Assembly (NCBI RefSeq): GCF_010731715.1
Contig: NZ_AP022587.1
Coordinates: 2,356,001-2,420,000 of the forward strand
DNA from: Mycobacterium stomatepiae
GTDB lineage: Bacteria; Actinomycetota; Actinomycetes; Mycobacteriales; Mycobacteriaceae
Length of the DNA stretch: 64,000 nt
Direction: 5' to 3'
How positions within the stretch are numbered: position 1 is the first letter of the stretch; each line of letters begins with the position of its first letter. The position numbers and the translations under genes are program-made. Positions 7,842 to 35,882 of the stretch are shown in pieces. The notes under the pieces were generated by a model. The model searched no databases. It saw only the letters and a program-made list of their open reading frames with translations, and was not told the DNA's origin.

Positions 7842-7858
7842 CTTGCACAAATTGCATA
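7842..7858. promoter_or_regulatory. Candidate operator, copy 1 of the 17-bp repeat (CTTGCACAAATTGCATA)
   Basis: Matches the inverted repeat CTTGCA-N5-TGCAAG at five of six positions in the right arm and all six in the left. It lies about 200 bases before the leftward truncated gene and 350 bases before the ferredoxin gene. The binding protein is inferred, possibly the TetR regulator at 36025-36792. Confidence 0.5.
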
Positions 7859-8114
7859 CCACGCATGCGAGATCGGCAACTGTGTACCGGCTATTCCAGA
7901 TCGGCGCTGGCGCGACGACCCAGAATAGCCGGAAACTGCTTGTCACAGCCCATGTAGCGAGGCGGGGCGGCACAAAACAGCATCGGGGCGCAATGCCGGT
8001 CTGGGCGTGCGTATCTTGTCAATAGGCACCGTCTGCCCGTCTCGGCTGGCAGCACCTCGAGCCAGCTGGACATACCATGGATTAGCGCGGTTCGTGGCGG
8101 CCCTGATAGTTTGA

Positions 8115-8131
8115 ATTGCAGTTATCGCTAG
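8115..8131. promoter_or_regulatory. Candidate operator, copy 2 (ATTGCAGTTATCGCTAG)
   Basis: Read on the opposite strand it is CTAGCGATAACTGCAAT, with the same spacing as the copies at 30772 and 35866. It lies about 77 bases before the ferredoxin start, a typical operator position for the ferredoxin-P450-LLM-epoxide hydrolase operon. Confidence 0.55.
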
Positions 8132-8207
8132 GCGGTCATGCATCCTATGGAAGTGCTAATCCGCCGATCCCGAGACCCGACGTACAACCAGATCGGAAGG
8201 AGTTGGG

Positions 8208-8402
8208 ATGAGGATGAGCGTGGACCCCGACAAGTGCCAGGGGCACACCTTGTGTTGGCTTGCGGCGCCCGACGCTTTCGTGCTCGATGACGAGGATGGC
8301 CATTCATCGCCGGTCAGCGAAGTCGTCGCACCCGAACACCAAGTAAAGGTCGCCGAGGCGGCGTTGAGCTGCCCCGAACAAGCAATCGAGGTGACCCCGT
8401 GA
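8208..8402 (+). CDS. 3Fe-4S type ferredoxin, P450 partner
   Basis: A 64-residue ferredoxin with the motif CQGHTLC near residues 10-16 and a final Cys-Pro (SCPEQAIEV). This C-x2-His-x2-C...CP pattern, with histidine at the usual non-cysteine position, is known from mycobacterial ferredoxins encoded beside cytochromes P450. It passes electrons singly to the haem enzyme in the cytoplasm. The ribosome site AAGGAG lies a few bases before ATG 8208. The stop overlaps the GTG of the P450 gene, so the two are translationally coupled. An inverted repeat of the window-wide motif lies about 77 bases upstream. Confidence 0.92.
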   Translation: MRMSVDPDKCQGHTLCWLAAPDAFVLDDEDGHSSPVSEVVAPEHQVKVAEAALSCPEQAIEVTP

Positions 8403-9727
8403 CCGCGATGGACAACAAGTCGTGTGCCTACCAGTTCGACCGGCACGCCGCGGACTACCGCGACAACTTCGAAAGCATCACCCACGATCTACACGCCAAA
8501 TGTCCGGTCGCGTGGTCGCCGACGTACGGCGGGCACTGGGTGGTCAGCGGTCACCAGGAACTGTTCAACATCGCCCGCCGCGCCGACGTGCTGTCCAACG
8601 ACCATGACCCCGACGGAATTCGCAAGGGCTATCAGGGAATCGGTATTCCCCCTGCCAGCGACCGCCAGGGCGGCTTTCTGGAAATGGATCCGCCCGAGCA
8701 GCGCGAGTACCGCCAGGTGCTCAACCCCTACCTGTCCCCCGCAGCTGTGGCACGGTGGAAACCGATGGTCGACGACCTTGTCAACGCCTGCCTCGATGAG
8801 CGGATTGAAACTGGCCGTATCGATTTCGTCGATGATCTCGCCAACATCGTTCCCGCGGTGTTGACGTTGGCGGTTCTTGGGCTGCCGCTGAAGGACTGGC
8901 AAGTCTACTGTGAGCCGACCCACGCGTTCGTCTACACCCACCCCGAGTCGCCGGACATGCCGCGGGTGCGCGCGCTGCAGACCGAGAAGACCACACGGAT
9001 GTACGGGAGCATCGTCGATCGGCGAGGAAAGCAGGTGCCGGGGATCATCGACGGGCTGATGTCGTCGACCATCTGTGGAGCACCGCCGTCAGACGAGGAC
9101 ATCATGGGTGTCCTCGGGCTACTCATCGGCGGCGGTTTCGACACCACGACCGCCTTGACCGCACACTCCTTGGAGTGGTTGTCGCAACACCCGCAAGCCC
9201 GCGAACAGTTGCGCGCGCACCTTGATGACCTCATCGACAGCGCCACCGAGGAGTTTCTGCGGTACTTCACCCCCGCGGTCGGTGATGCCCGCACGGTTTC
9301 GCAGGACTGCGAGATCGACGGCGTGGCATTCAAGGAGGGCGAGCGAGTGTGGCTGTCGTGGGCCATGGCCAATCGTGATCCGGTGATGTTTCCCGCCGCC
9401 GACGAAGTCGTCCTCGACCGGACGGGCAACCGTCACTACAGCTTCGGTCTGGGTGTTCACCGCTGCATCGGGTCGAACGTGGCTCGGATGGTTTTCAAAG
9501 CGATGCTCACCATCGTGCTGACGCGCATGCCCGATTTTGTCTGTCTACCCGAAGGCACTGAACATTACGACACGGTGGGCGTCATCAACGGAATGAAGCA
9601 TCTGCCGGCGACGTTCACCCCGGGCCGCCGGATAGGATCCTCGCTCGACGAAACACTGGGCCGCTGGCAGCAACTGTGCGACGAGCAGCGCCTCGCTGAA
9701 CCCATCACACGGTCATCGAAGTCGTAA
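8399..9727 (+). CDS. Cytochrome P450 monooxygenase
   Basis: A 442-residue P450. The I-helix oxygen-binding motif GGGFDTTTA sits near residues 243-251, the ExxR motif is EEFLRY, and the haem loop is FGLGVHRCIG with Cys356 as thiolate ligand. Length and motifs are complete, so it should be a soluble haem monooxygenase inserting one oxygen atom into a hydrophobic substrate. It starts with GTG at 8399 in a GTGA overlap with the ferredoxin stop; ATG 8408 is an alternative. Electrons come from the adjacent ferredoxin; no dedicated reductase gene is nearby. With the following epoxide hydrolase, an epoxidation-hydrolysis sequence is a plausible inference. The subfamily was not assigned. Confidence 0.95.
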   Translation: MTAMDNKSCAYQFDRHAADYRDNFESITHDLHAKCPVAWSPTYGGHWVVSGHQELFNIARRADVLSNDHDPDGIRKGYQGIGIPPASDRQGGFLEMDPPEQREYRQVLNPYLSPAAVARWKPMVDDLVNACLDERIETGRIDFVDDLANIVPAVLTLAVLGLPLKDWQVYCEPTHAFVYTHPESPDMPRVRALQTEKTTRMYGSIVDRRGKQVPGIIDGLMSSTICGAPPSDEDIMGVLGLLIGGGFDTTTALTAHSLEWLSQHPQAREQLRAHLDDLIDSATEEFLRYFTPAVGDARTVSQDCEIDGVAFKEGERVWLSWAMANRDPVMFPAADEVVLDRTGNRHYSFGLGVHRCIGSNVARMVFKAMLTIVLTRMPDFVCLPEGTEHYDTVGVINGMKHLPATFTPGRRIGSSLDETLGRWQQLCDEQRLAEPITRSSKS

Positions 9728-9735
9728 GGCAGGCA

Positions 9736-10593
9736 ATGAGACCCGACTTAGGCCGACTCGGTATCTGGGCCCAGGAATACAAGCTGAACCCGACGTTGGT
9801 GGCCGAACTGGAGGCGATGGGATACGGCACCGTCTGGCTGGGGGGCTCGCCCGACGGTGACTTGCGCATCATCGACGAATTTCTGGGTGCCGCCACCCGG
9901 CTGGTAATGGCCACCGGAATCGTCAACATCTGGCGCGACGAGGCCACCAAAGTGGCTGCCGCGCACCGGCGAATCAGTGACGCATTCCCCGGCAGGTTCC
10001 TCCTCGGGATCGGAGTCGGCCATCCCGAGCGGACCTCGCAATACCAGCGTCCCTACGCCAGCCTGGTCAGCTACCTCGACATACTCGAAGCCGAGGGCGT
10101 CCCGAAAGACGAATTGGTGCTGGCTGCACTAGGACCCAAGGTCTTGCAACTGGCGGCAGACCGCACCGCGGGAGCCCATCCCTACCTGACCACACCGGAG
10201 CACACTCGGCGCGCGCGGCAACTCGTCGGACCCGAAACCCTGCTGGCTCCGGAACAGAAGGGCGTCCTGACCACCGACGCGCAGCGCGCACGCGAACTGG
10301 CGCGATCGGTCGTGGTCTTTCCCTACCTCAGCCGCATCAACTATCTGCAAAACCTGCGCAGCCTAGGATGGACCGACAACGACGTCGCCGGGGACGGCAG
10401 TGACGCACTCATCGACGCACTCGTCGGCCACGGAAATCCGGCCGCCGCCACCGCGCCGATCAGCGCCCATCTCGACGCTGGTGCCGATCACGTTGCCGCA
10501 CAATTGATCACCGAGCCCGATGTCGACCCGCGTGCGGGCTACGCGACGATCGCCGAGGCCGTGCTGCAATCGCAGTCGTCGAAACCTTTGTGA
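9736..10593 (+). CDS. LLM-class F420-dependent oxidoreductase
   Basis: A 285-residue TIM-barrel protein of the luciferase-like monooxygenase class, in a mycobacterial subgroup that uses coenzyme F420. Typical segments are LGRLGIWAQEYKLNPTLVAELE at the start (quoted here in two overlapping parts LGRLGIWAQEY and LNPTLVAELE), GYGTVWLGGSPDGDL, ATGIVNIW and FPGRFLLGIGVGHPE. It probably performs a hydride transfer to or from F420 on a product of the P450. The gene begins eight bases after the P450 stop with AAGGCAGG before the ATG, and is followed after four bases by the epoxide hydrolase gene, so all four genes form one operon. Substrate unknown. Confidence 0.9.
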   Translation: MRPDLGRLGIWAQEYKLNPTLVAELEAMGYGTVWLGGSPDGDLRIIDEFLGAATRLVMATGIVNIWRDEATKVAAAHRRISDAFPGRFLLGIGVGHPERTSQYQRPYASLVSYLDILEAEGVPKDELVLAALGPKVLQLAADRTAGAHPYLTTPEHTRRARQLVGPETLLAPEQKGVLTTDAQRARELARSVVVFPYLSRINYLQNLRSLGWTDNDVAGDGSDALIDALVGHGNPAAATAPISAHLDAGADHVAAQLITEPDVDPRAGYATIAEAVLQSQSSKPL

Positions 10594-10597
10594 CGCA

Positions 10598-11743
10598 ATG
10601 GAGTTACAGCCGTTTAGCGTCGACATCCCCGAGGCAGCGGTACAGGACCTCCGATTGCGATTGGCCAACGCTCGCTGGCCAGCACAGCTGCCTGGTGCTC
10701 CATGGGAGCGCGGCGTTCCCGTTGAGTACCTCCAGAATCTGTCCAGGTATTGGGGCGAACAGTTCGATTGGCGAGCCACCGAACGCCTGCTGAACTCCCA
10801 TCCGCAATTCCGCACCGACGTCGGCGGTCAAACCGTGCACTTTCTGCACGTACGGTCGCCGTCGCCCGATGCTGTGCCGTTGCTTCTGCTGCACGGCTGG
10901 CCAGGTTCCGTGATCGAATTCCTCGACGTCATCGGACCGCTCGCCGATCCCGAGGCACATGGGCTGCGCGCGCCGGCCTTCGACCTCGTCATTCCGTCAC
11001 TGATCGGATTCGGTTTCTCAACGCCGCTGTCATCGGCGGGGTGGACTCCCGCCCGGAACGCCGAAGCATTCGTGGCGCTGATGGGCGGGCTTGGGTACCC
11101 CCGCTTCGGGGTTCAGGGCGGCGACTTCGGCGCGGCCATCGGGCCCGAGGTGGGTCGCCTTGCCGCCGACCGGGTCATCGGTGTCCACGTCAACGCCCCG
11201 GTAGCCAACTTCCGCTCCTCGACGCCGATTCCCGCCGAGGAGTTGGCGTCTCTGACCGACGTTGAACGACGCCGCGCGGCCACCGCTTCGCTGTGGAGGG
11301 CCGAGCGGATGGGGTACTTCAAACAGCAGGCCACCCGGCCACAGACGTTGAGCTACGGTCTGACTGACTCACCGATCGGGCAGCTGGCCTGGATCGTGGA
11401 GAAGTTCAAGGAGTGGACCAACGCCGGGCACGCACTGCCCGAGGACGCCGTTTCGCGCGACCGACTGCTTGCCAACGTATCGCTGTACTGGTTCACGGGC
11501 ACCGCGGCGTCCTCGGCGAACATCTATTACGAGGTGGCGCACGCCAGGCAACGACCCACGCCGTCCAGGGTCCCCACCGCGGTCGCGAACTTCGCCGAGG
11601 ACATGGGCATCCGTCGGTACGCCGAGCGCTGGCACAACATCGTGCGGTGGAACGACTTCGACGCCGGCGGACACTTCGCCGCCCTGGAAACACCCGAGTT
11701 ACTGGTTCGTGACATCGGGCAGTTCTTTTCCAGTTTGGTCTGA
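10598..11743 (+). CDS. Epoxide hydrolase (EHN domain, alpha/beta hydrolase)
   Basis: A 381-residue epoxide hydrolase. The N-terminal EHN domain is seen in FSVDIPEAAVQDLRLRLANA, the oxyanion motif is HGWPGS, and the nucleophile Asp176 lies in QGGDFGAAIG. The lid tyrosine region is YWFTGTAASSANIYYE and the catalytic His359 lies in GGHFAALE. It adds water to an epoxide through an aspartyl ester. The ATG at 10598 is four bases after the preceding stop; a longer frame upstream overlaps the LLM gene and is not the likely start. As last gene of the ferredoxin-P450 operon it may open an epoxide made by the P450. Confidence 0.92.
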   Translation: MELQPFSVDIPEAAVQDLRLRLANARWPAQLPGAPWERGVPVEYLQNLSRYWGEQFDWRATERLLNSHPQFRTDVGGQTVHFLHVRSPSPDAVPLLLLHGWPGSVIEFLDVIGPLADPEAHGLRAPAFDLVIPSLIGFGFSTPLSSAGWTPARNAEAFVALMGGLGYPRFGVQGGDFGAAIGPEVGRLAADRVIGVHVNAPVANFRSSTPIPAEELASLTDVERRRAATASLWRAERMGYFKQQATRPQTLSYGLTDSPIGQLAWIVEKFKEWTNAGHALPEDAVSRDRLLANVSLYWFTGTAASSANIYYEVAHARQRPTPSRVPTAVANFAEDMGIRRYAERWHNIVRWNDFDAGGHFAALETPELLVRDIGQFFSSLV

Positions 11744-12488: not shown

Positions 12489-12515
12489 GAGTTTTCCTTT
12501 TTTGGGTGCTCGCCG

Positions 12516-16224: not shown

Positions 16225-16258
16225 ACCGCCACGATGCGGCGAGGATCCGCGAGCGAGC

Positions 16259-16295
16259 AGAACGTATCAGTTCCATAATGGAACTGATACGTTCT
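16259..16295. promoter_or_regulatory. Perfect 37-bp palindromic operator between mmpS and tetR
   Basis: Arms of 18 bases, AGAACGTATCAGTTCCAT and its exact reverse complement, flank a single A at 16277. It lies 35 bases before the mmpS start and 36 bases before the TetR start, centred between the divergent genes. The perfect symmetry and position strongly suggest the operator of the adjacent TetR regulator, controlling both genes. Long enough for two TetR dimers. Confidence 0.85.
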
Positions 16296-16330
16296 TTTAC
16301 GGGCCGCTATGTTCCTTTAGGCTGTATGTG

Positions 16331-17584: not shown

Positions 17585-18191
17585 TCAGATCGCGCCTGGA
17601 TCCGTCGTGTGGGCCTTGCCGTTCGACGTCAGCGGCAGTTCGTCGACGAACAAGACGTGGCGGGGCCGTTTGAAGGGCGAGATCTGGGCGCGCACGTGCG
17701 CGATCAGTTCGTCTACCGACGGGCTGGCCCCGCTGCGCGCAACGACGATCGCGCAGATCGCTTCGCCCCAGTAGTCGTCGGGAACGCCGACAACGGACAC
17801 CATCTCGACGTCCGCGTGCGTCGACAACGCTGCCAAGTCCGTCCAGATAGCGGGCGTCTCCGAGGAGAATCCGGGGCTCGCTGGCAACGATGAGCGCGAG
17901 TTGTCCTGCGGGGCTGAGTCTCTGGTTGATCATGCTGAGTATGCGACCGCTGCGGGGGGCAGCGTAGTACAGCTGAACATACGGTAGGCCGTTGTCGGCC
18001 ACGACGGCGATCCTGTCGCCAGCAGCGCTGTGCTGTCCCAGCCAGCCCGCGATCGAACCGACCTGCTGGTGCAGTTCTTCGAAGGTGGTCGCGGTGCCCG
18101 CGCCGGATACCACGGCGCAACGATCGGGTGCAGCCGTGGCCGCCTGCGATAGCAGATCCCCGAGGCGCCGCGCCGGGTGGTCGGTCAACAC
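17585..18191 (-). pseudogene. Acyl-CoA synthetase with central deletion and frameshift
   Basis: The N-terminal part of an adenylate-forming ligase (LGDLLSQAATAAPDRCAVVS, IAGWLGQHSAAGDRIAVVAD, LYYAAPRSGRILSMINQRLS) starts at GTG 18191, overlapping the stop of the preceding synthetase gene. After about 120 residues the frame changes, near 17800-17850, and continues as the C-terminal domain (HADVEMVSVVGVPDDYWGEA, ISPFKRPRHVLFVDELPLTS, then NGK). The central 250 or so residues with the ATP-binding P-loop are missing. The catalytic lysine motif remains but the enzyme cannot work. It was probably a second fadD of the operon. Confidence 0.8.
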
Positions 18192-25195: not shown

Positions 25196-26292
25196 GGCGT
25201 CGCCTCACCAACCTCGGTGGCGGCCACCTCGGCGTATAAATCCGCGGGCGTGCCGTACGAGTTGGCGATCAGCGTGGCCCGGCGCAAGTACAGGTGCAGG
25301 TCGTGTTCCCAGGTCACGCACATCCCGCCGTGTAGTTGGACACAGTCCTGGATGAGCTCGACGGCATGCGCGGCGGCATAGGCCTTCGCGGCCCGCGCCA
25401 GCAGGCCAGCGCCCCGGGATTCAGCTCCCACTGCGTCGGCGGCAGCGTCGGCCACCGCATGGGTCGCCTCGACCCACATCTTCATATCGGCGCATCGATG
25501 TTTGAGCGCCTGATACGACGCCAGCGGCCTGCCGAATAAGTAGCGGTTGGCCAGCCAGTCCAGCGTCAGGCCGAAGACCGCGTCGACGACGCCCGTCAGC
25601 TCGGCGGCCTGAAGCACCCAAGCCAGGCGGCGTGCGCGTTCCACCTCGTCGGGACCGGTGCTCAGCGCCTGACCGGCGGGCAACCGAACATTGTCCAAGC
25701 TCACCACGGCATGCCGCGTGGAGGCGTCAAGCCATTTCAGCGCACGAACCGACACACCCGATGTTTCGCGTTCCAGCAGGCAGGTGGCCGTTGGGCCGGA
25801 TAGCAGCAGCAGCGCTTCCTGCGTTGGCAGAGTTGCGGTTATCTCACCGTCGATGCAGACATCGCCGTTGCTGTGCCTGTCGATCACAATGCCGCTGGTC
25901 GGCGAACGCTGCAGCCACCATCCGGCTACCGCCGAACCCTCCAGCAGGCCGGGTAGATGCCGGTCGCGAAGGTCCGCGTTGTCGCTGCGGACCAGGGCAT
26001 CGATAGCGACGTTGGTCTCCAGGAACGGGCCAGGGGCTACCGCACGCCCGATCTCAGCGGCGATCACGGTCAAGTCGACCACCGGCGCGTCGCTGATGCT
26101 GGCGCCCCCGTGCTCGTCTGGAACGAGCGGTGACGTCCAGCCCAGCGCCGACATCTTCTTCCATAGTTCCGCGTCGAATCCGCTCGGTTCTTCGAGCGTG
26201 GCACGCACGGCGCTCAGCGGTTGCTCGGTCGACAAGAACCTCTGTACGACATCGCGGGCCAGTCGCTGATCCTCAGTGAGGTCGAACCTCAT
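25192..26292 (-). CDS. Acyl-CoA dehydrogenase, first gene of the leftward operon
   Basis: A 366-residue dehydrogenase starting MRFDLTEDQRLARDVVQRFL, with GWTSPLVPDEHGGASISDAP, YLFGRPLASYQALKHRCADM (FAD-binding R/QFG-like segment) and the C-terminal VQLHGGMCVTWEHDLHLYLR. ATG 26292 is chosen because GGGAGGCGGAG lies just upstream; an ATG at 26310 is possible. It leads an operon of overlapping genes: two dehydrogenase pairs, enoyl-CoA hydratase, aldehyde dehydrogenase and two synthetase genes. A 17-bp inverted repeat at 26339-26355 lies in the divergent promoter region. Confidence 0.9.
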   Translation of the reverse strand: MRFDLTEDQRLARDVVQRFLSTEQPLSAVRATLEEPSGFDAELWKKMSALGWTSPLVPDEHGGASISDAPVVDLTVIAAEIGRAVAPGPFLETNVAIDALVRSDNADLRDRHLPGLLEGSAVAGWWLQRSPTSGIVIDRHSNGDVCIDGEITATLPTQEALLLLSGPTATCLLERETSGVSVRALKWLDASTRHAVVSLDNVRLPAGQALSTGPDEVERARRLAWVLQAAELTGVVDAVFGLTLDWLANRYLFGRPLASYQALKHRCADMKMWVEATHAVADAAADAVGAESRGAGLLARAAKAYAAAHAVELIQDCVQLHGGMCVTWEHDLHLYLRRATLIANSYGTPADLYAEVAATEVGEATP

Positions 26293-26338
26293 CGGCTCCG
26301 CCTCCCTCACATTGCGATTTCACATAACAGAACTGGCA

Positions 26339-26355
26339 CTAGCACAGACTGCAAC
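26339..26355. promoter_or_regulatory. Candidate operator, copy 3 (CTAGCACAGACTGCAAC)
   Basis: Same 17-bp design as the copies at 30772 and 35866. It lies 47 bases before the leftward acyl-CoA dehydrogenase operon and 83 bases before the rightward enoyl-CoA hydratase gene, well placed to control both. A nearby ATTGCATAAT at about 26361-26370 resembles the core of the other sites. Confidence 0.6.
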
Positions 26356-26437
26356 TAGTAATTGCATAATACGCATGGGAGACTACCGCTGAGCGTGTCG
26401 TAGCTGCGAACGCGCCCGAACCTGAAAGGCGACACCT

Positions 26438-27340
26438 GTGACAGCTGGCCGCTACATCACCTACGAGACGCTGGATCAAGGCCGCATCGCTCGGATCATG
26501 CTCAACCGGCCCGATGCACGTAACGCGCAGAACCGCGGGCTTCTCGTCGAGCTCAACGACGCGTTCCTGCGCGCCGAGGCCGACGACGATGTGCGTGTGG
26601 TGATCCTCGGCGGTGTCGGCACGATGTTCTCGTCAGGACACGACCTCGGGTCCAAGGACCAGGTGCGTGACCGAACCCCGGGACCGGGTCAGCATCCCTC
26701 GTATCAAGGCAACGGAGGCACGCGGCAGGGTGCTGAGCGATTGATGCTGCAGGAGTGGCATTACTTCTTCGAGAACACCCGTCGGTGGCGCAATCTGCGC
26801 AAGATCACGATCGCTGCGGTGCACGGTCCGGTTTACGCCGCGGGCCTGATGGTGATGTGGGCGTGTGATCTCATCGTCGCCGCCGACGACACGACGTTCG
26901 CCGAGGTGGTCGGGACGCGCCTCGGGATGTGCGGTACCGAGTACTTCGCTCACCCCTGGGAGTTCGGGCCCCGGCGCGCCAAGGAGCTACTGCTGACCGG
27001 TGATTCGCTCGGGGTCGACGAAGCTCATGCCATCGGGATGGTGAGCAAGGTGTTCCCCGCCGGGGAACTGGCTGACAAGACCCTGGAGTATGCCCGCCGC
27101 ATCGCTGCGCAGCCGTCGATGTCCTCGCTGTTGATCAAGGAGTCAGTGAACCAGTCCGTCGACAACATGGGCTTCTACAACGCGCTCAACGCCTGCTTCA
27201 CGCTGCACGAGCTCAATCACGCGCACTGGGCGTGGGTCACCAACGGCCAGTTCATGATGGGCACCCCCGAGCACGGTGTGCCTGCCTGGAAGGATGCGCC
27301 ACCGGTGGTCCCGCGGAACAAGAACGAGGTCCGCGCGTGA
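26438..27340 (+). CDS. Enoyl-CoA hydratase/isomerase (crotonase family)
   Basis: A 300-residue crotonase-fold enzyme. The first oxyanion motif is GGVGTMFSSGHDLGSKDQ and the second HGPVYAAGLMVMWACDLIVA, followed by FAEVVGTRLGMCGTEYFAHP. An insertion of about 40 residues with a conserved-looking HYFFENTRRWRNLRKITIAA lies between them, as in several mycobacterial EchA proteins. It starts with GTG 26438 and overlaps the thioesterase gene by GTGA. Its promoter region shares a 17-bp inverted repeat with the divergent dehydrogenase operon, so both sides may be induced together. Confidence 0.9.
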   Translation: MTAGRYITYETLDQGRIARIMLNRPDARNAQNRGLLVELNDAFLRAEADDDVRVVILGGVGTMFSSGHDLGSKDQVRDRTPGPGQHPSYQGNGGTRQGAERLMLQEWHYFFENTRRWRNLRKITIAAVHGPVYAAGLMVMWACDLIVAADDTTFAEVVGTRLGMCGTEYFAHPWEFGPRRAKELLLTGDSLGVDEAHAIGMVSKVFPAGELADKTLEYARRIAAQPSMSSLLIKESVNQSVDNMGFYNALNACFTLHELNHAHWAWVTNGQFMMGTPEHGVPAWKDAPPVVPRNKNEVRA

Positions 27341-28203
27341 CCTCGGCGCAGGCACTCAGCGATGAATTGCTCGCGGCCCTGACGCTGACCGAATCCTCCG
27401 ATGGCGCACTGCACGCTCCGTACTTCAGCGAGGGGCGCGGTGTCGTATTCGGCGGTCAGCTGTTGGGCCAGGCGATCGTCGCCGCGGCCCGACGGATGCC
27501 GGGCAAGCGGGTGAAATCGGTACAGACGATCTTCTCCCGCGGCGTGAAGGTCGCCGAGCCGGTGGACATCCTCGTCGAGCCGATGCACGAGGGCCGCAAC
27601 ATCGGCAGCGCCACAGTCAGTTTCGTGCAGGATGGCTGCACCTGCGCTCGCGCGCTGGTGCTGCTCGACGTCGCCGAACCCGACCTCGTCCGCTACCAGA
27701 TACCGATGCCCGAGGTCGATGGCCCCGATCCCGCCGCGGCACGGCCGCATCCACTGACCGCACCACAGACCATCATGGTCGGTGACGTCGACATTCACGA
27801 TCCAGCGCTGACCGGGCCGGCCACCCTGCAGCTGTGGGTGCGGTTCCCCGACGCACCGGCCGACTCTCCTGCCGTACACCGCGCCCTGTTGGCGCACACC
27901 ACCGACGGATGGCTGATCGCGACCGCGATGCGCCCACACCCCGATCTGGGCCAGTCGATGGCACACGTCGAGGTGTCCACGGCCGTGCTGAGCCAATCGT
28001 TGGCGTTTCACGGCGATGTCGACGCACGGCGGTGGCTGCTCATCGACCACGCGGCGCTGGCCACCGCCGGTGGGCGCACGTACGGTCGCGGGCACATCTT
28101 CACCGAAGGCGGCGAACTGGTCGCGTCCTTCGTGCAGGAAGGCCTGCTGCGCAACTTTCCCCGCGGGCAGGACCCACGGGGAAAGCACAGAACCATCTTC
28201 TGA
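27337..28203 (+). CDS. Acyl-CoA thioesterase II-like (TesB type)
   Basis: A 288-residue double-hotdog thioesterase. The N-terminal hotdog has GVVFGGQLLGQAIVAAARRM and KSVQTIFSRGVKVAEPVDIL; the C-terminal one has STAVLSQSLAFHGDVDAR, LLIDHAALATAGGRTYGRGH and ELVASFVQEGLLR, the usual TesB end. It hydrolyses acyl-CoA to free acid and CoA. The GTG at 27337 overlaps the enoyl-CoA hydratase stop, so the pair is one unit. In a catabolic cluster it may release CoA from a dead-end intermediate; that is inference. Confidence 0.9.
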   Translation: MTSAQALSDELLAALTLTESSDGALHAPYFSEGRGVVFGGQLLGQAIVAAARRMPGKRVKSVQTIFSRGVKVAEPVDILVEPMHEGRNIGSATVSFVQDGCTCARALVLLDVAEPDLVRYQIPMPEVDGPDPAAARPHPLTAPQTIMVGDVDIHDPALTGPATLQLWVRFPDAPADSPAVHRALLAHTTDGWLIATAMRPHPDLGQSMAHVEVSTAVLSQSLAFHGDVDARRWLLIDHAALATAGGRTYGRGHIFTEGGELVASFVQEGLLRNFPRGQDPRGKHRTIF

Positions 28204-28233: not shown

Positions 28234-29493
28234 CTAGGAGGCCGCGGCCTGTGCCGCCTCGAATCGTTCACGCCACACGCGTCGGGACACCTCGCTGGTA
28301 TCGACGTCGGCCGCGCCTGCGCGCAACGCAGCGACCGTGGCCTGCTCACGCGGAACCGTCGCGAACGGATCGACGCCGAAGAAACGGCAGCTGTTCTGCC
28401 AGGTGATCTTGTGGATCTCCTCGTCGGTGGCATTGGCGTTCCACAGCTCCTCGTGCAGCTCCTCAGCGGCGTGCGGCCAGTTCGAGTCCGAGTGGGGGTA
28501 GTCGCATTCCCAGGCGATGTTGTCGACCCCGATCTGCTGGCGCAGCTGCAGCCCGGACGGGTCAGTGATGAAACAGGCCAGCACGTGTTCCTTGAACACC
28601 TCGCTGGGTAGGCGCTGGTCGCGGTTGCCGGTCCACACCTGGTTGTTGTGATGGCGGTCGGCCCTATCCAGGAAGAACGGAATCCAGCCAATCCCGCCCT
28701 CGGACAACGCGATTCGCAGGTCCGGGAACTTACGCAGGGTCGGCCCGAGCAGCAGATCGGATGCGGTGATCGCCGAGATCTGCCCGGCGATCACGATGAA
28801 GTTGTCCACAGATGAATCCGGCGCCTGTTGGAGCAGACGTATCCCGAGACCAATGTGCAGGCACAGCACCACGCCGAGTTCAGAGACGACCTTCAGCAGC
28901 GGATCCCAGTGCCCGCTTTGGAAGCTCGGCAGGCCAATCGCATACGGGGTCTCCGGGAATGTCACGGCGCGAACGCCTTTGGCGGCTAGCCGACGCAGTT
29001 CTGCAATGCAGGCGTCGACGTCCCACAGCGGCAGCACCCCCAACGGGATGAACCGTCCCGGGTATGCACCGCACCACTCGTCGATGTGCCAGTCGTTGTA
29101 CGCGCTGATGACCACCCCGGTGAGTTCCTTGTCGGCGGAGTCGTTGAACGCTCTGCCGCTGAAACCGCCCATCGTCGGGAAGCACATCGACATGAGAATG
29201 CCGGCGGCGTCCATATCGCGGACCCGATGGTGGACGTCGTAACACCCCGGCCGCATCTCGGCCATCCCGACCGGATCGAGCGACCACTCCTCTTTCGGCC
29301 AACTAGCGACCGCGTTGAGACCCACCGATCCGATTTCCATATCCTGGAACACCCAGCGCTCCACCCCGTTTGGTCCAGGGACGAGCTTCGGCGCCCGGTC
29401 CAGGTACTTGGCGGGCAGATGATTGTCGAACACGTCGGGCGGTTCAATGAGGTGGTCATCGACGCTGACGAGGATCAGATCGCCGATATTCAC
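28234..29493 (-). CDS. Amidohydrolase-2 family protein (ACMSD-like)
   Basis: A 419-residue TIM-barrel metal-dependent hydrolase or decarboxylase of the amidohydrolase 2 (ACMSD-like) group. The start SVDDHLIEPPDVFDNHLPAK holds the first metal ligands as D-x-H, as in many mycobacterial members. LCLHIGLGIRLLQQ provides a barrel histidine and NIAWECDYPHSDSNWPHA the conserved aspartate. GTG 29493 is chosen because AAGGAGCGAGAC lies before it. It follows the next amidohydrolase gene after 18 bases, so they form one operon. Such enzymes cleave C-C bonds or amides in ring-degradation pathways; the substrate here is unknown. Confidence 0.85.
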   Translation of the reverse strand: MNIGDLILVSVDDHLIEPPDVFDNHLPAKYLDRAPKLVPGPNGVERWVFQDMEIGSVGLNAVASWPKEEWSLDPVGMAEMRPGCYDVHHRVRDMDAAGILMSMCFPTMGGFSGRAFNDSADKELTGVVISAYNDWHIDEWCGAYPGRFIPLGVLPLWDVDACIAELRRLAAKGVRAVTFPETPYAIGLPSFQSGHWDPLLKVVSELGVVLCLHIGLGIRLLQQAPDSSVDNFIVIAGQISAITASDLLLGPTLRKFPDLRIALSEGGIGWIPFFLDRADRHHNNQVWTGNRDQRLPSEVFKEHVLACFITDPSGLQLRQQIGVDNIAWECDYPHSDSNWPHAAEELHEELWNANATDEEIHKITWQNSCRFFGVDPFATVPREQATVAALRAGAADVDTSEVSRRVWRERFEAAQAAAS

Positions 29494-29511
29494 GAGTCTC
29501 GCTCCTTGCGA

Positions 29512-30699
29512 TCAGACGCGCGTGGTCAAGCCGAGGACGTCGTAGAGGTTTCCGCCCATGATCTTGCGGACCTCCTCGTCAGTGCGGTGACCGAGCTCGT
29601 CGAGCCACGACAACGGCTCGGCAAGGCCCTCAGGGTGTGGGTAGTCGGATCCGAACACCACCCGGTCGGCTCCAATGGTGTCGATCAGGGTGTCGATGGA
29701 GTCCTCCCAGAACGGGTTGACGTAGACGGATCGCAGGAACGTGTCCTTGGGGTGCTCGGTGAACTCCTGGGGCATCTTCTTGTACACGCCCTCAAGGGTT
29801 TTCAGCGCCGGCAGCACCCAGCCGCCGCCGTTTTCCACCGAGATCAGCCGCACGTTGGGGAACCGGATCAACATGCCGTGGCAGATCGCCGAATAGATCG
29901 TGTCGGAGATCGGGCGTGCGCCCATCGCCGCCGCTGCGAACGTCGACGGCTTGAAGGCGGAGAACTCGATCTGGCGTCCCTCCCAGTCGTTGATGTACTT
30001 CTGGTATCCCGAGTCGGATGCGTGCAGTGCCACCAAGACCCCGGCCTCCTGTACCCGCGCCCAGAACGGATCGAACTCGGGCAGGAACGGCGACCGTGTC
30101 ACCGGGCTGCCCGCCACCGGACCCGGACGCATGAGGACCACTTTGGCGCCGTGCTCGAGGCAGAACTCCAGCTCGGCGATGCCCTTCTCGACCACACTGG
30201 GGTTGACGACAGGCGTGGGGAAGATCCGGTCCTGGTAATTGAACGTCCACTCGTCGAGCAGCCAGCGGTTGAACCCGTGGATGAGCTTCTCGGTGATGTC
30301 GGGCAGGTCCAGGAAGTTGACCTCAACCAGTGACGCGAGTGTGGGGAACATCAGCGCCGAGTCAATGCCGAGCTCGTCGAGTAGCGCCAGGCGATCGGCT
30401 GGATTGCGGAACGCGGGAATGCTGCGCATCGGCTTGCCCATGATCTCGCGCAGCGACTTTCCCTCCGGGTTGTTGCCCGAGTAGAAGTCCATCGTCGCGC
30501 CCGGCCGGGCGACCACCTCGAAGGTCGGGTTGGGGATGTAGTCACTGACCTTGTTGCGGATCGCCACTTTGGTGCGGCCATCGACCGTGATGTACCGGAA
30601 GACGTCCTTCAACTCGGCGGGCAGGTACCGGGTGAACGATTCCTCAGTCTCGTAGAGGTGGTGGTCGCCATCGAACACCGGGAAATTGAGCTGCGGCAC
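29512..30699 (-). CDS. Amidohydrolase-2 family protein (ACMSD-like)
   Basis: A 395-residue member of the same family, starting VPQLNFPVFDGDHHLYETEE. Metal-site regions are FDGDHHLYE, VALHASDSGYQKY and RVVFGSDYPHPEGLAEPL. The start is set at GTG 30699 because GGTAGGAAGGACCGAC directly precedes it. An ATG at 30765 would put the start against the operator and leave no room for a promoter. Related proteins also begin near this point. It is the first gene of a two-gene operon, and the candidate operator at 30772-30788 lies about 70 bases upstream. Confidence 0.85.
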   Translation of the reverse strand: MPQLNFPVFDGDHHLYETEESFTRYLPAELKDVFRYITVDGRTKVAIRNKVSDYIPNPTFEVVARPGATMDFYSGNNPEGKSLREIMGKPMRSIPAFRNPADRLALLDELGIDSALMFPTLASLVEVNFLDLPDITEKLIHGFNRWLLDEWTFNYQDRIFPTPVVNPSVVEKGIAELEFCLEHGAKVVLMRPGPVAGSPVTRSPFLPEFDPFWARVQEAGVLVALHASDSGYQKYINDWEGRQIEFSAFKPSTFAAAAMGARPISDTIYSAICHGMLIRFPNVRLISVENGGGWVLPALKTLEGVYKKMPQEFTEHPKDTFLRSVYVNPFWEDSIDTLIDTIGADRVVFGSDYPHPEGLAEPLSWLDELGHRTDEEVRKIMGGNLYDVLGLTTRV

Positions 30700-30771
30700 G
30701 TCGGTCCTTCCTACCGCCCGCCGGACAGCGACGGGCACTGAATTTGGCGCTTCCATTCTTTTCATGTCACG

Positions 30772-30788
30772 CTAGCATAATCTGCAAG
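30772..30788. promoter_or_regulatory. Candidate operator, copy 4 (CTAGCATAATCTGCAAG)
   Basis: The flanking bases CATGTCACG before and TAAACG after are also shared with the copy at 35866, giving a conserved block of about 38 bases. It lies between the leftward amidohydrolase operon and the rightward CoA-transferase gene and probably overlaps a promoter (TATGCT-like -10 on the minus strand at the other copy). Confidence 0.7.
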
Positions 30789-30869
30789 TCAGATAAACGC
30801 GCCGCGTATCGCGGACCAGAACGTCCCTCAACACCGCCGAGCGTGGCGTGGGGCCCAAAGGAGGCAATC

Positions 30870-32111
30870 ATTTCCCGAACGGATTCCGGTGGCGGTGCTC
30901 ACCCGAAAGTCATGCAAGGGGTACGCGTGCTCGAGGTCGCCGCCTGGACGTACGTGCCCGCGGCGGGCGCAGTCCTAGCCGAGTGGGGAGCCGATGTCAT
31001 CAAGATCGAGCACCCCGAGACCGGCGACCCGCAGCGAGGCCTGATCACCTCGGGCCTGGTTCAGGCGGCCGCGGTCAACACCATGGTGGAGCTACCCAAC
31101 CGCGGAAAACGCAGCGTGGGGCTGGATCTGCGGTCTGACGCGGGCCGCCAGGTGCTCATGGAGTTGGCCGCCACCAGTGACGTGTTTCTGACCAACTTTC
31201 TCCCGCCAGCGCGCGCGGCCTTGCGTATCGAGGTTGAAGATCTGCGCGAGGCAAATCCGGACATCATCTACGTTCGCGGGTCGGGGCAGGGCCAGCGCGG
31301 CCCCGAACGCGACCGCGGCGGTTACGACGGAAGTGCGTTTTGGGCGCGATCGATCGCCGACATCGCCACCGGTAGCAGCGACGGGTGGCCAATGCGCCAG
31401 CCGGGCCCGGCCTTCGGAGATCTCATCGGCGGCATGACCATCGCCGGCGGCATCGCCGCTGCCCTGTTCCATCGAGAGCGCACCGGACGATCGACCGTCG
31501 TCGACAACTCGCTTCTGCACACCGCGATGTGGGCGGCCGGGGCGAGCCTGCTCGGCGCCGGGGTGAACGGTTCCTACGAACCGGCGACGACTGATCGCTA
31601 CAACGTGCCCAATCCGGTCGTCAACGTCTACCGCACCGGCGACGAGCGGTACATCACACTGGTGATGTTGCAGTCGGATCGCTACTGGGACGAGTTCGTG
31701 ACCAAAGGCGGGCGCCCTGATCTGGCCAGCGATGCGCGGTTCTGTTCGGCCAAGGCGCGTTACGCGAATCGCCGGGCCTGCATCGCCGAACTCGACGCGA
31801 TGTTTGCGGCGCGATCGTTCGACGAATGGCGCACCGTCCTGGCCGACGTCGAAGGCGTCTGGGCTCCTGTGCTGCGACCCAACGAAGTGCTCGCCGACCC
31901 CCAGGTGCAGGCCAACGGATACCTTCGCGAGATCGCGCTGGACGATGGCACCAGGTTCGCAATCGTTTCCGGGCCAATACAGTTCGACGAGTCGCCGCCC
32001 GTGTTGGCACGTGCTCCTGAGCACGGCGAGCACACCGACGAGGTCCTGACCGAACTCGGGTACGAGACCGAAAAAATCCTGGAGCTCAAAGTCGCCGGCG
32101 CCGTTCTGTGA
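30870..32111 (+). CDS. CaiB/BaiF-type CoA-transferase (family III)
   Basis: A family III CoA-transferase of about 413 residues. Typical are GVRVLEVAAWTYVPAAGAVL, AEWGADVIKIEHPETGDPQR, the N-terminal catalytic Asp region VGLDLRSDAGRQVLMELAA, ETDRGG-like RDRGGYDGSAFWARS, and GDLIGGMTIAGGIAAALFHR. It moves CoA from one acyl-CoA to another acid. The strongest ribosome site (AAAGGAGG at 30857-30864) is followed five bases later by ATT at 30870, in frame. The next ATG is 30912, without a ribosome site and cutting into the first strand. I therefore mark 30870 as likely start, an unusual codon. Divergent from the amidohydrolase operon. Confidence 0.85.
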   Translation: MSRTDSGGGAHPKVMQGVRVLEVAAWTYVPAAGAVLAEWGADVIKIEHPETGDPQRGLITSGLVQAAAVNTMVELPNRGKRSVGLDLRSDAGRQVLMELAATSDVFLTNFLPPARAALRIEVEDLREANPDIIYVRGSGQGQRGPERDRGGYDGSAFWARSIADIATGSSDGWPMRQPGPAFGDLIGGMTIAGGIAAALFHRERTGRSTVVDNSLLHTAMWAAGASLLGAGVNGSYEPATTDRYNVPNPVVNVYRTGDERYITLVMLQSDRYWDEFVTKGGRPDLASDARFCSAKARYANRRACIAELDAMFAARSFDEWRTVLADVEGVWAPVLRPNEVLADPQVQANGYLREIALDDGTRFAIVSGPIQFDESPPVLARAPEHGEHTDEVLTELGYETEKILELKVAGAVL

Positions 32112-32143
32112 CGGTTCCGAAGACTCGCATGTGGTAACGGTTG

Positions 32144-32932
32144 CTAGCCAATGTCATTGACGAATCGCATCTGCCGGCTCTGCGCCAGCAGCACGCCTGT
32201 GCAAGTCCATACCTCCACGTCCTCGTCGACGAAGCCGCCGGCGGAGACCCGGTTGGTGAGCACGACCAATAGCGGGCTACCCGCCGGGACATCCTGATCC
32301 GGAAGTTCGTGGCGCAGGTGGTAGGTGAGGTCTACGGTTGTCACCGTGTGCCGCGGTGTCCAGGCCCGATACACCGCCGGAGCCCACAGATCCACCAGCA
32401 CGGCGACCCACCGGTGGTCGATAGGCTCGGCGGTTCGCGGCGCGACCCACCCGCCCACGCGTGACACGCGGTGCCCGTCTCCGTCTTTGATCCGGGGCTG
32501 AATCCACAGCCGTTCATGAATCGGTGTCAGCGCACGCGTGTGGGCCGAATTCTCATTGGGATCATAGGGTTTCACCAGTGGTGCATCGACAAGGGCTACT
32601 TCGCCGGTCTTGCGCCGCTGCGCTACCGAGGCCACCCCGAGGCCGGAAAGCCGTTCCGCAGAGAACAGCCGGACGGACACGTTGGCCATTCGGCGGCCCT
32701 GTCGTTCGACGGTCACCTCTACTCGCAACCGGCCGTCGACGATTGGGCGCAGGTAGTGCAACGTCAGCTGTTGGAGCATCATCTCGGATCCAGCGAATTC
32801 GGTCTCCACCGCGCTGATCGCCAATGCAAGTACGTAGCCGCCATGCACGGACCCCTGTGCCAACCAGCCCCGGCCCACCTCGCGCTCATAGACACCGGCG
32901 CAGGTTCGCTCCAATTGGCACTCGTCGACCAT
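32144..32932 (-). CDS. Thioesterase-like protein (double hotdog)
   Basis: A 262-residue acyl-CoA thioesterase-like protein. The N-terminal hotdog contains GRGWLAQGSVHGGYVLALAI and LTLHYLRPIVDGRLRVEV; the C-terminal one TTVDLTYHLRHELPDQDV and GGFVDEDVEVWTCTGVLLAQ. It lies directly behind the acyl-CoA synthetase gene, with ATG 32932 two bases after that stop; a GTG six bases earlier overlaps it. It probably hydrolyses a CoA ester, in opposition to or in proofreading of the synthetase. The pairing of synthetase and thioesterase in one operon is visible; the substrate is not. Confidence 0.82.
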   Translation of the reverse strand: MVDECQLERTCAGVYEREVGRGWLAQGSVHGGYVLALAISAVETEFAGSEMMLQQLTLHYLRPIVDGRLRVEVTVERQGRRMANVSVRLFSAERLSGLGVASVAQRRKTGEVALVDAPLVKPYDPNENSAHTRALTPIHERLWIQPRIKDGDGHRVSRVGGWVAPRTAEPIDHRWVAVLVDLWAPAVYRAWTPRHTVTTVDLTYHLRHELPDQDVPAGSPLLVVLTNRVSAGGFVDEDVEVWTCTGVLLAQSRQMRFVNDIG

Positions 32933-32934
32933 GC

Positions 32935-34554
32935 TCACCGCGGCGCACTCTGCGCCACCCGCGCCAGAATCATGTCGGTGAGCTGATGGGTGCGGACCTT
33001 GAACGTTGGTGTCCACGGGATCTCCTCGGACTCGAATATCGCGACAAGTGTCGGAACCTTGTACGGGGACAGATCCCTCTTCAACTCTGCCCTGATCCGC
33101 GCCGCGTCGAGCCCGCTACCGCTATCGAGGACCGCCGCTGCGGCGACGAGTTGCCCGCGCGTGTCGTCGGGTACCGGCACCACATACGCCTCGCGCACAC
33201 CGTTAAGGGCAAGCATCGCTTCTGCCACCTCCGCTGGAGCGACGTTGGCTCCCGCGGTCTTGATCATCTGAGTCAGGCGGCCAAGGTAGTGGATCGAATT
33301 CCCGTCGCGCAGCCCCCGGTCGCCGGTGTGCAACCATCCGTCGGCGTCGAATCCGAAGTCCTTGGGCCGCTTGTAGTAACCGGGCGTGACACACCGGCCC
33401 CGCACCGCGATCTCACCGGTCTCCCCGTCGGCGACGGACTGGTTGTGCTCGTCGACGACCCGGACTTCCAGGCCCGGCTGAATGTCCTCGATCGCCGCGA
33501 TGTGGTTGGCACCGCCCGATCCCCAGGAGAACGGGCCGAAGGTTTCCGACATCCCCAACGCCATGCGGTGGCCCTCAGGGGTGCGGATACCGTCGCCCTC
33601 GTGGCCGACCACCAGGCGCGGATCGGCAACCCGCAGCGAAGCGCGATCGGTTGTGGCGAAGGCAGAATGCGCGAGTAGTTGTTCAACCTGGTGCGGATAG
33701 ATGACCAGTCGGGTGACCTTCTCTCGTTCGATCAGCGCGAGCACCTCACCCGCGCCGAAGCGCTCGCACCACACCGAGGTGGCGCCCGCGGCAAGGCTGG
33801 TGAACAAGCTCATCGTGAGTCCACCGATCCAGAAGAGCACGTGGCTGGTGTATGTCCGTTCGCCGGGCCGGTACTGCATCCGCTCGGCCAGGTACCGCGC
33901 ACGGAAGCACACCGTGTCATGAAGGTGCGGAACCCCTTTGGGGTCCGCCGTGGTCCCCGAGGTGTGGATCATCAGCGCCACGTCAGTGCCGAGGACATCG
34001 GCCTCGACCGCCTCCAACAATGCCTCGCTGACAGGGGTTGAGGGGTGGCCGTACTGCGCGGAGGACGCCCACGGGGGCAAGCCGGCTTCGGCATTCACGA
34101 AGTCGACCCACCGCAGATTTGGCACGTCGGGCAGCGTAAGGAACGGTCCGCGAGCGGATTCCAGCCCCGGCAATGCCGCCGCGAGGCGCTCGACCTGATC
34201 GGTGCCCATCATGGTGCGCGCGGTCAAGATGGCAGCGACATCACCGTAGCGCAGCAGCCGCAACAGCTCCCGGCCACGAGCGAAGGCCGAGATCGGCACG
34301 GCAACCGCCCCGATGCGGCTGACGGCCAACAGCGACACGATGAAGTCGGTGTCGTTGCCGAAGGAGATGCCGACATGGCAGCCCTTGGTGACCCCGCGTC
34401 CGATCAGATTGCGCGCCAGGGTTCGTGTGCGTTGGTCGAGTTCGGTGAATGTCAACCGCGTACCACCCGCAACGACGGCGTCGGCGTCGCCGAAGCTGTC
34501 GGCTGCCGTGCGGAGCAGTTGCCCGATCGTCGCCGCTTCGATCGGCGTCGCCAT
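32935..34554 (-). CDS. Acyl-CoA synthetase (FadD type)
   Basis: A 539-residue adenylate-forming ligase. The P-loop is LMIHTSGTTADPKGVPHLHD, followed by ALGMSETFGPFSWGSGG, the GWLHTGDRGLRDGN motif, LGRLTQMIKTAGANVAPAEV and a C-terminal FKVRTHQLTDMI that carries the catalytic lysine. ATG 34554 has GGAGGACTGACAC before it. It follows the amidohydrolase gene (34580-35728) by 25 bases and is followed by a thioesterase gene, so these three form an operon led by the 35866 operator. It activates a carboxylic acid, perhaps the product of the neighbouring amidohydrolase. Confidence 0.9.
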   Translation of the reverse strand: MATPIEAATIGQLLRTAADSFGDADAVVAGGTRLTFTELDQRTRTLARNLIGRGVTKGCHVGISFGNDTDFIVSLLAVSRIGAVAVPISAFARGRELLRLLRYGDVAAILTARTMMGTDQVERLAAALPGLESARGPFLTLPDVPNLRWVDFVNAEAGLPPWASSAQYGHPSTPVSEALLEAVEADVLGTDVALMIHTSGTTADPKGVPHLHDTVCFRARYLAERMQYRPGERTYTSHVLFWIGGLTMSLFTSLAAGATSVWCERFGAGEVLALIEREKVTRLVIYPHQVEQLLAHSAFATTDRASLRVADPRLVVGHEGDGIRTPEGHRMALGMSETFGPFSWGSGGANHIAAIEDIQPGLEVRVVDEHNQSVADGETGEIAVRGRCVTPGYYKRPKDFGFDADGWLHTGDRGLRDGNSIHYLGRLTQMIKTAGANVAPAEVAEAMLALNGVREAYVVPVPDDTRGQLVAAAAVLDSGSGLDAARIRAELKRDLSPYKVPTLVAIFESEEIPWTPTFKVRTHQLTDMILARVAQSAPR

Positions 34555-34579
34555 GTGTCAGTCCTCCGGGCTTCCGCTG

Positions 34580-35728
34580 TCAGAACGGCTGGGCCAAGAG
34601 CTTTCGATCGAACCGGAACACCTCGATGGCGTTCTCCCGGAATATCTTTCGTGCTTGCTCCGGTGAGACGTGCGCGGCCTGCTCATCGACGAGTCGGCGC
34701 GAATTGGGGTAGGTCCCCTCCTCGTGCGGATAGTCGTGGCCCCACATCAGCGAAACGTCGCCTGACATTGGCACATTGCGCATCCCGATGTGGTCGACCT
34801 GAAAGGTCGCGTGGCATTGTCGCTGGACGTACCAGCTGGGCGGATGTGCGAGATCGGGGTACACCGTCGGCTTGGTCTGCTGATCTTTGCGGATTTCGTC
34901 GTATTCGCGGAACACCTTGTCGTAGTAGTCCATCAGTTCTTCAACCCAGGCGATCCAGCCGGTGTTGAACTCGACGAAGACGACATGGAGGTTGGGGTGA
35001 CGCTCGAGCACTCCCGACGTCGCCAACAGAGTCGCCACCCGTGGTGCGATGGTCTGGGTCGACACCAGGTTCGCGACGGTGGCGCCGGGCCCTCGGTACC
35101 AGATGGTGTTGAAGCCGGTGCCCTGATGCATGACTACGGGTAGCCTCGCGGCGTCGATGGCGTCCCACATCGGGTCCCATACCCGGTGGTTCCATGCCAC
35201 CTCGGTGTGAGAGGGCAGCATGATGGCCCGCAGCCCCTGTTCGGCGACGCGCTCGACTTCAACGGCGGCGTTCTCGGGCTCCCAGGTGGGGATGATGCCC
35301 GCACAGCAGAAGCGGTCCGACGCGCGCTGCAGGGTGTCGTAGATCCAGTCGTTGTAGATGTGACAGCTGGCCTGGCCGCCCTTGGCATCTTCCAGTAGCC
35401 AGACGTACAACCCGATGGTGGGGAAGATCGTCTCGGCGACGATGCCCTCGGACCGCAACACTTCGAAGCGCTTCGCGGGATCGAGCACCGAAAGCCGTTC
35501 GGCTTCGGAAGCCATGTCCTTCTTGAAGACATGCTTGCCCTCGAAGACCACCTTCCAACTGCCGTCCTCGCCCGACTGCAGTCCTTGCATGGCCTGTGAA
35601 CGCAGCGATGGCGGGAGGTTTTCCGACCACAGATCCCGGGGCTCGTTGACGTGAGAGTCCGCCGAGACCAGGCCGATGTCCGACACCTTGGCTTCCGTTG
35701 ACTGCGGGATCGAATCCGTGACGGTCAT
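34580..35728 (-). CDS. Amidohydrolase-2 family protein (ACMSD-like)
   Basis: A 382-residue amidohydrolase. Metal-site regions are VSADSHVNEPRDLWSENLPP (D-x-H), VVMHQGTGFNTIWYRGPG and the final LMWGHDYPHEEGTYPNSRRL. The middle part, FVEFNTGWIAWVEELMDYYD, is typical of mycobacterial ACMSD-like proteins. ATG 35728 has GGAGGAAGGACGACC before it; an in-frame ATG 28 codons upstream lacks a ribosome site. It is the third such gene in 8 kb and carries the same operator block as the 30699 gene upstream, which argues that all three act in one pathway. Confidence 0.87.
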   Translation of the reverse strand: MTVTDSIPQSTEAKVSDIGLVSADSHVNEPRDLWSENLPPSLRSQAMQGLQSGEDGSWKVVFEGKHVFKKDMASEAERLSVLDPAKRFEVLRSEGIVAETIFPTIGLYVWLLEDAKGGQASCHIYNDWIYDTLQRASDRFCCAGIIPTWEPENAAVEVERVAEQGLRAIMLPSHTEVAWNHRVWDPMWDAIDAARLPVVMHQGTGFNTIWYRGPGATVANLVSTQTIAPRVATLLATSGVLERHPNLHVVFVEFNTGWIAWVEELMDYYDKVFREYDEIRKDQQTKPTVYPDLAHPPSWYVQRQCHATFQVDHIGMRNVPMSGDVSLMWGHDYPHEEGTYPNSRRLVDEQAAHVSPEQARKIFRENAIEVFRFDRKLLAQPF

Positions 35729-35865
35729 CTGGTCGTCCTTCCTCCGGCGGGTGCCCATCGGCGAACACGGACCTGAGGTTTCGTCCGCTGTCCGCGATTC
35801 GTGCTGGAACACCCGCGTATCAGGTCCGGGATTGCAAATCGTACTTCTATATCTCGCATGTCACG

Positions 35866-35882
35866 CTAGCATATTATGCAAG
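35866..35882. promoter_or_regulatory. Candidate operator, copy 5 (CTAGCATATTATGCAAG)
   Basis: Closest copy to the TetR gene. The core GCATATTATGC is a perfect inverted repeat around one base. With its flanks it shares most of a 38-base block with the site at 30772. It lies 138 bases before the leftward amidohydrolase-synthetase-thioesterase operon and about 140 bases past the TetR stop. Confidence 0.7.

Follow-up and report, generated by a model that had tools for sequence, protein, structure and literature searches.

A multi-half-site operator array and a candidate TetR repressor in a catabolic island of Mycobacterium stomatepiae

A 64,000-nucleotide stretch of the Mycobacterium stomatepiae genome (contig NZ_AP022587.1, positions 2,356,001 to 2,420,000; hereafter the window, numbered from its first letter) holds an island of catabolic units, at whose edge lies the gene for a TetR protein, TetR36 (36025-36792). 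Are these units switched on together and, if so, by which regulator? An initial annotation had marked five 17-bp inverted repeats, said all to fit CTTGCA-N5-TGCAAG and to lie in promoter regions, and had proposed a single regulator for them with TetR36 as the first candidate. We find that its places were right and its unit wrong: the repeated element spans at least 28 bp and occurs in six copies. Our analysis links genes, switches and regulator as probable parts of one system; judged from sequence, the local regulon appears real and its candidate regulator well supported, and TetR36 is probably the pathway-specific local repressor of the island.

The operator array

The five 17-bp stretches are present at 7842, 8115, 26339, 30772 and 35866, and each is an inverted repeat, but they depart from the proposed consensus by 2, 3, 2, 1 and 1 mismatches, respectively. 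With up to 3 mismatches allowed, CTTGCA-N5-TGCAAG matches the window 35 times against 19.3 expected (largest of 100 shuffles, 34), and CTNGCA-N5-TGCNAG with up to 1 mismatch matches 5 times against 2.2 expected, a count equalled by 8 of 100 shuffles. Since shuffled DNA does nearly as well, the 17-mer taken alone is weak evidence, close to chance, and it was ruled out as the true unit. A first refinement, TTGCA-N5-YGCWWG, has six perfect matches in the window, but it mixes pairs spaced by 3 bp with pairs spaced by 7 bp and was superseded by the array described here.

Alignment of the window sites with two foreign promoters, described below, gave three half-sites over 28 bp, approximately GNAWGT-N3-NCTAGC-N7-GCAAGT, in which a half-site is followed after 3 bp by an inverted half-site and after a further 7 bp by a third. 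The N7 pairs of the array are the 17-mers of the initial annotation. The six window copies are as follows, with half-sites in capitals; each left-out score and rank comes from a matrix built without the array concerned, among 127,946 window positions.

Operator 1, 7841..7868 (41-bp form 7841-7881), minus strand: GCATGC-gtg-GTATGC-aatttgt-GCAAGC; left-out score 13.1, rank 9; between broken reductase open reading frames (ORFs; start 7753, minus strand) and the ferredoxin gene (8208, plus strand)
Operator 2, 8114..8141 (fourth half-site to 8154), minus strand: GCATGA-ccg-CCTAGC-gataact-GCAATT; left-out score 20.4, rank 6; ferredoxin start 66 bp on
Operator 3, 26329..26356, plus strand: AGAACT-ggc-ACTAGC-acagact-GCAACT; left-out score 8.0, rank 18; FadE25 start 18 bp away
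Operator 4, 26360..26387, minus strand, absent from the initial annotation: GGTAGT-ctc-CCATGC-gtattat-GCAATT; left-out score 23.0, rank 6; ECH26 start 50 bp on
Operator 5, 30762..30789 (fourth half-site from 30749), plus strand: TCATGT-cac-GCTAGC-ataatct-GCAAGT; left-out score 32.1, rank 3; between AH29 and the divergent CoA-transferase gene
Operator 6, 35856..35883 (fourth half-site from 35843), plus strand: GCATGT-cac-GCTAGC-atattat-GCAAGT; left-out score 36.2, rank 1; AH35 start 43 bp away

With a matrix built from all six, the arrays take ranks 1-6 of the window positions; left out in turn, four are strong, 7841 is fair, and 26329 is weak alone. No score of 21.9 or above arose from this 28-bp window matrix in 24 Mb of simulated DNA. 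In four of the six copies a fourth half-site (ACTTCT, GCTTCC, AGTTGC, ACTTCC) lies 7 bp further out, so that the array extends to 41 bp; this half-site is poor at 26329 and absent at 26360. Judged one by one, the copies are clearly palindromic over 41 bp only at 7841-7881, with 9 of 12 half-site pairs (a value reached by 0.1% of positions; others, 2.6% to 67%).

Placement in promoter regions was largely borne out. The six arrays occupy four promoter regions of the island, and five of them stop 18-66 bp short of a catabolic unit's first possible start codon or overlap it. The array at 30762-30789 overlaps by 4 bases the first possible AH29 start codon (30765) and lies behind the first possible CoA-transferase start (30744), which leaves both starts uncertain. 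The site at 7842 may serve the broken reductase genes on its left instead of, or besides, the P450 unit.

The wider block noted earlier around 30772 and 35866 is real, with a long stretch common to 35843-35890 and 30749-30797, and the arrays overlap or sit just before likely promoters. On these grounds the shared blocks might not be operators but parts of promoters, or one promoter present in duplicate, a reading that we consider very unlikely. When both sister sites are excluded, the matrix built on the remaining four still gives 35856 a score of 29.3 (rank 3) and 30762 a score of 25.1 (rank 6), and inverted half-sites at even spacing recur in eight sites of three genomes.

Recurrence on two Acidimicrobiales contigs

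The array recurs on two Acidimicrobiales contigs, L042 and L053, that carry relatives of TetR36. Raw 34-mers were taken from the two strongest window sites before any register was set. In L042 the best match to both 30762-30795 and 35856-35889 is 570-603 (25/34 and 24/34; reached by 0 of 60 shuffles), and in L053 the best match to 30762-30795 is 2176-2209 (23/34; again 0 of 60), a place at which 35856-35889 matches at 19/34, reached by 20 of 60 shuffles. The first 18-bp matrix, built before these loci were read, has its top match at the same place in L042 (13.2) and at 2183 in L053 (16.2); an 18-bp-matrix match at 4383 in a third contig, L043, was dropped, the genes around it being unrelated. 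On the 28-bp window matrix the two arrays score 22.9 in L042 (none in 8 Mb simulated for that contig) and 21.9 in L053 (0.0009 expected per contig).

L042 array, 570-597: GAATGT-gac-ACTATC-atatttg-GCAAGT, between divergent FadD33-like and AH35-like genes
L053 array, 2182-2209, minus strand: GAAAGT-tac-ACTTAC-agaatct-GCAAGT, flanked by a branched-chain permease gene and the gene of a TetR36 relative (ORF start 2262)

L042 further encodes an orthologue of ECH26 (65%) and two relatives of TetR36. At the start of the ECH26 orthologue lies a further array (5126-5153; score 14.5, 0.016 expected per contig), and the window likewise has operators before ECH26. A place at 4123-4150 scores 12.2; it precedes the conserved portion of an ORF of uncertain start for a solute-binding protein. 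The next separate place scores 6.4. In the reverse direction, a matrix built solely on the L042 and L053 arrays places 35856, 30762, 26329 and 26360 at 1st, 2nd, 4th and 8th of 127,946.

These results bear on the simplest alternative, that the motif is chance, five loosely alike inverted repeats chosen by eye. The shuffles that equal the 17-mer fit it, as do the reversed controls given below; recovery of the array in L042 and L053, and a reverse test that did not fail, make it hardly credible.

Distribution in the genome and the genus

A degenerate array pattern has nine exact matches in the 6.21-Mb genome, and six of them are the island operators, within 28 kb. The concentration speaks against chance, and against a general promoter element, which would be scattered genome-wide. 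Looser patterns behave otherwise: the earlier core pattern matches the genome 16 times, 6 of them in the island, against 21 for its reversed control, and the array pattern with up to 1 mismatch matches 63 times against 117. Because reversed controls match as often or more, the signs point to a local regulon and none to a genome-wide one, and a wider regulon is not supported. When 18 of the 57 non-operator matches were scored on the full matrix, one proved to be a mirror reading of operator 2, and the best outside place among those scored, 6180923, 44 bp before a methyltransferase gene, reached 18.8, a chance level of about once per genome. Among 188 genomes of the genus, only this one has a cluster of three exact matches to the operator; 14 others have one match each.

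TetR36 as the candidate regulator

TetR36, 36025..36792, minus strand: candidate regulator at the island edge, a single 255-residue TetR protein
Weak candidate operator, 36916..36943, plus strand: score 13.7 (0.22 expected per 64 kb), a poor palindrome, 123 bp before the TetR36 ORF start

Residues 67-110 of TetR36 match TetR_N (PF00440) at 41.7 bits against a cut-off of 24. In the predicted model the all-helical TetR fold gains a further helix at residues 42-49, which falls within a conserved stretch WRxRVVxRSL. Its best fold matches include FadR and KstR, with RolR, EthR2 and others tied, in a list where the absence of a family does not exclude it; because of these ties, an acyl-CoA-type inducer would follow from the pathway and not from the fold. 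A search of 198 genomes of the genus finds TetR36 in one (E <= 1e-40). The closest proteins, from metagenome sources (P0001-P0005), are 95, 87, 66, 65 and 61% identical, and a family profile at E <= 1e-30 matches 14 of 396 genomes of the mycobacterium's own phylum and 40 of 395 in the class to which G199 belongs, mostly through more distant homologues.

The case for TetR36 as the single regulator has three parts: its relatives share contigs with the array in two other actinobacterial genomes, the other TetR protein of the region has a palindrome of its own, and the exact pattern is concentrated in the island. Several observations weigh against it. The register of the 28-bp array was set with L042 and L053 in view, so the 28-bp scores, simulations and reverse test are not fully independent, although the 34-mer and first 18-bp-matrix matches are independent of the register choice. 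The matrix from those two contigs places 7841 and 8114 only 80th. The TetR36 relatives beside the foreign arrays are distant (33% in L053; 42% and 33-36% in L042), and no relative of any other window protein, catabolic genes included, was found in the 7.4 kb of L053. The strongest window match near the TetR36 gene, at 36916, is weak; autoregulation of TetR36 through it is possible. By matrix, the array is absent from five of the seven loci with TetR36 relatives (L051, L052, L054, L055 and L111) and from a Blastococcus cluster (L003) whose AH35 is 76% identical.

These absences are not uniform. In L052 (genome G806) the inner pair GAAAGT-N3-ACTTTC stands at two cluster promoters, 6804-6818 (1 mismatch) and 16836-16850 (0), with the third half-site missing; these pairs may represent a divergent form of the operator within the TetR36 subfamily. 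L111 has loose inner-pair forms (2 and 3 mismatches), and no inner-pair form was seen in L051, L054 or L055. Besides L003, L014 (AH35 72%) has no array by matrix. Among 55 wider-family loci (L056-L110), scores above 10.1 occur only in L086, which is the window, and L056, which belongs to the L042 contig. At the second exact palindrome in genome G909 (L119), ARAGORN finds no tRNA.

The arrays might instead be true operators bound by another regulator, either encoded elsewhere in the genome or TetR16 (16184-16897), and we judge this unlikely. The TetR36 gene itself has a weak operator candidate nearby, contact between TetR36 and the array is a prediction from sequence, and the genome has at least two further members of the wider family (4786061, 5593891). 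At the loci of those two members (L100, L110), however, no matrix score exceeds 9, whereas the array lies on the same contigs as TetR36 relatives in L042 and L053, and directly before a TetR gene in L053. TetR16 was ruled out as the array regulator, since it faces mmpS/mmpL and has its own, unrelated, perfect 18+1+18 palindrome (37 bp) at 16259-16295.

A model for control of the island

With TetR36 as the repressor, we infer binding and repression along the following lines. In the absence of inducer, TetR36 dimers would sit on the array of inverted half-sites (about GCAAGT), spaced by 3 and 7 bp, and, near the start codons, would block RNA polymerase. After uptake and activation of the substrate, an intermediate of the pathway, probably an acyl-CoA thioester that the ligases or the CoA-transferase produce, would bind the C-terminal pocket of TetR36; the protein would leave the array, and the catabolic units would switch on together. 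What began as a repeat found by eye is now a regulator-operator pair that can be tested, set in a CoA-dependent degradation pathway. The enzymes do not by themselves indicate the class of substrate; the inducer of TetR36 would, if the protein binds.

A bolder picture, offered tentatively, is that of a travelling regulon, in which catabolic units, operators and their own repressor may have moved together between actinobacterial classes and still work in the mycobacterium. The operator could then be an undescribed TetR type, with four half-sites over 41 bp (inverted-N7-direct-N3-inverted-N7-direct), outer pairs 22 bp or two helical turns apart and two dimers on one face, and this grammar, varied in G806 (inner pair only), might define the TetR36 subfamily with its conserved WRxRVVxRSL helix before helix 1. 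If true, this would be an example of a catabolic island carrying its own control between distant actinobacteria.

Comparison with known regulators

The KstR2 core, which we take to be CAAGnnCTTG, has a single window match (0.46 expected) at 10137-10146, inside the LLM oxidoreductase gene and not in a promoter, and KstR2 was ruled out by motif. KstR (Rv3574) binds as a single dimer to a 14-bp core, TnnAACnnGTTnnA (PMC1995591), and governs a large dispersed regulon; it too is a pathway-specific TetR repressor, differing in its core and in that dispersal. Its core has 0 matches in the window against 0.31 expected by chance, which rules out KstR by motif. BkaR is a TetR protein that acts locally, repressing its own gene and neighbouring genes of CoA metabolism, and its promoters carry the motif in more than one copy (PMC3920632). 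TetR36 would resemble it in these respects, but the BkaR core is GTTA(N)T(N4)A(N)TAAC, and BkaR is conserved across mycobacteria, whereas TetR36 is found in one of 198 genomes of the genus. By analogy, TetR36 and its array would be another pathway-specific TetR repressor system like KstR and BkaR.

In length, the array, with its layout h-N3-h-N7-h (h, half-site), may resemble the 22-32-bp operators of the dimer-of-dimers class (PMC4150764), to which QacR, CgmR and CprB belong, a comparison that covers length; 28 bp are conserved, and the 41-bp form is found in four of six copies, of which only one is clearly palindromic singly. Mce3R of M. tuberculosis is a TetR-like repressor with a non-palindromic operator (PMC11667970); it differs in having a double TetR motif in one chain. 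Among the open-licence papers listed, we found no account of this operator or gene combination; a survey of mycobacterial TetR regulators gives the motifs of 30 conserved members as logos (PMC4482099), which lie outside the comparison.

The catabolic island and its origin

Unit 1, 8208..11743, plus strand: ferredoxin (8208-8402), P450 (8399-9727), LLM oxidoreductase (9736-10593), epoxide hydrolase (10520-11743)
Unit 2, 18185..26310, minus strand: FadE25, FadE24, ECH23, aldehyde dehydrogenase (two frames), FadE21, FadE20 and FadD, read leftwards from 26310
Unit 3, 26438..28203, plus strand: enoyl-CoA hydratase ECH26 and thioesterase TE27, divergent from unit 2
Unit 4, 28234..30765, minus strand: amidohydrolases AH29 (29512-30765) and AH28 (28234-29493)
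Class III CoA-transferase ORF, 30744..32111, plus strand: divergent from unit 4; start uncertain, Pfam match from residue 57
Unit 5, 32144..35812, minus strand: amidohydrolase AH35 (34580-35812), acyl-CoA ligase FadD33 (32935-34554), thioesterase TE32 (32144-33016)

In total the island has four FadE, two ECH, one aldehyde dehydrogenase, two FadD, two 4HBT_3 thioesterases and three Amidohydro_2 proteins. Because it is rare in the genus, the island is inferred to have been acquired horizontally. Composition gives no proof of origin, since third-position GC overlaps between the catabolic genes (0.74-0.87) and the rest of the window (0.74-0.89). The AH35 relatives in one named collection are the Blastococcus protein (76%) and one from an Acidimicrobiales metagenome-assembled genome (72%); at E <= 1e-90, AH35 is found only in its own genome and G311 among 394 of the class. 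Among the matches listed from plasmid records, the best amidohydrolase reaches 32% and TetR at most 30%. In G311 (L043, 8872-13491), AH35 and AH28 relatives adjoin a thiolase-like gene (Thiolase_C_1), with no TetR36 relative in that stretch.

Several genes of the window appear interrupted. The aldehyde dehydrogenase (21734-23184, minus strand) is read in two overlapping frames, against an intact relative in L054, and is a broken gene or an assembly error. Carboxylic acid reductase-like domains extend over three ORFs at 5124-7753 (minus strand), the first of which is without the front of the adenylation domain; this gene is broken. Pyruvate carboxylase-like domains over two abutting ORFs (47681-51066, minus strand) are again a broken gene or an assembly error. 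At the island edges, a partial formyl transferase match (37650-38363, minus strand) and a partial match to the front of an AMP-binding enzyme (16953-18266, minus strand) are possible remnants.

The TetR16 and mmpS/mmpL locus

TetR16 (plus strand) faces mmpS (15715-16224, minus strand) and mmpL (12851-15736, minus strand). Its palindrome, which is unlike the array, lies between mmpS/mmpL and the DNA-binding domain of TetR16, and is a probable operator of an efflux locus inside the catabolic region. The arrangement of TetR16, as distinct from that of TetR36, is like that of MAB_4384 of M. abscessus, a TetR gene divergent from mmpS5-mmpL5 with a long palindrome between them (PMC5895659).

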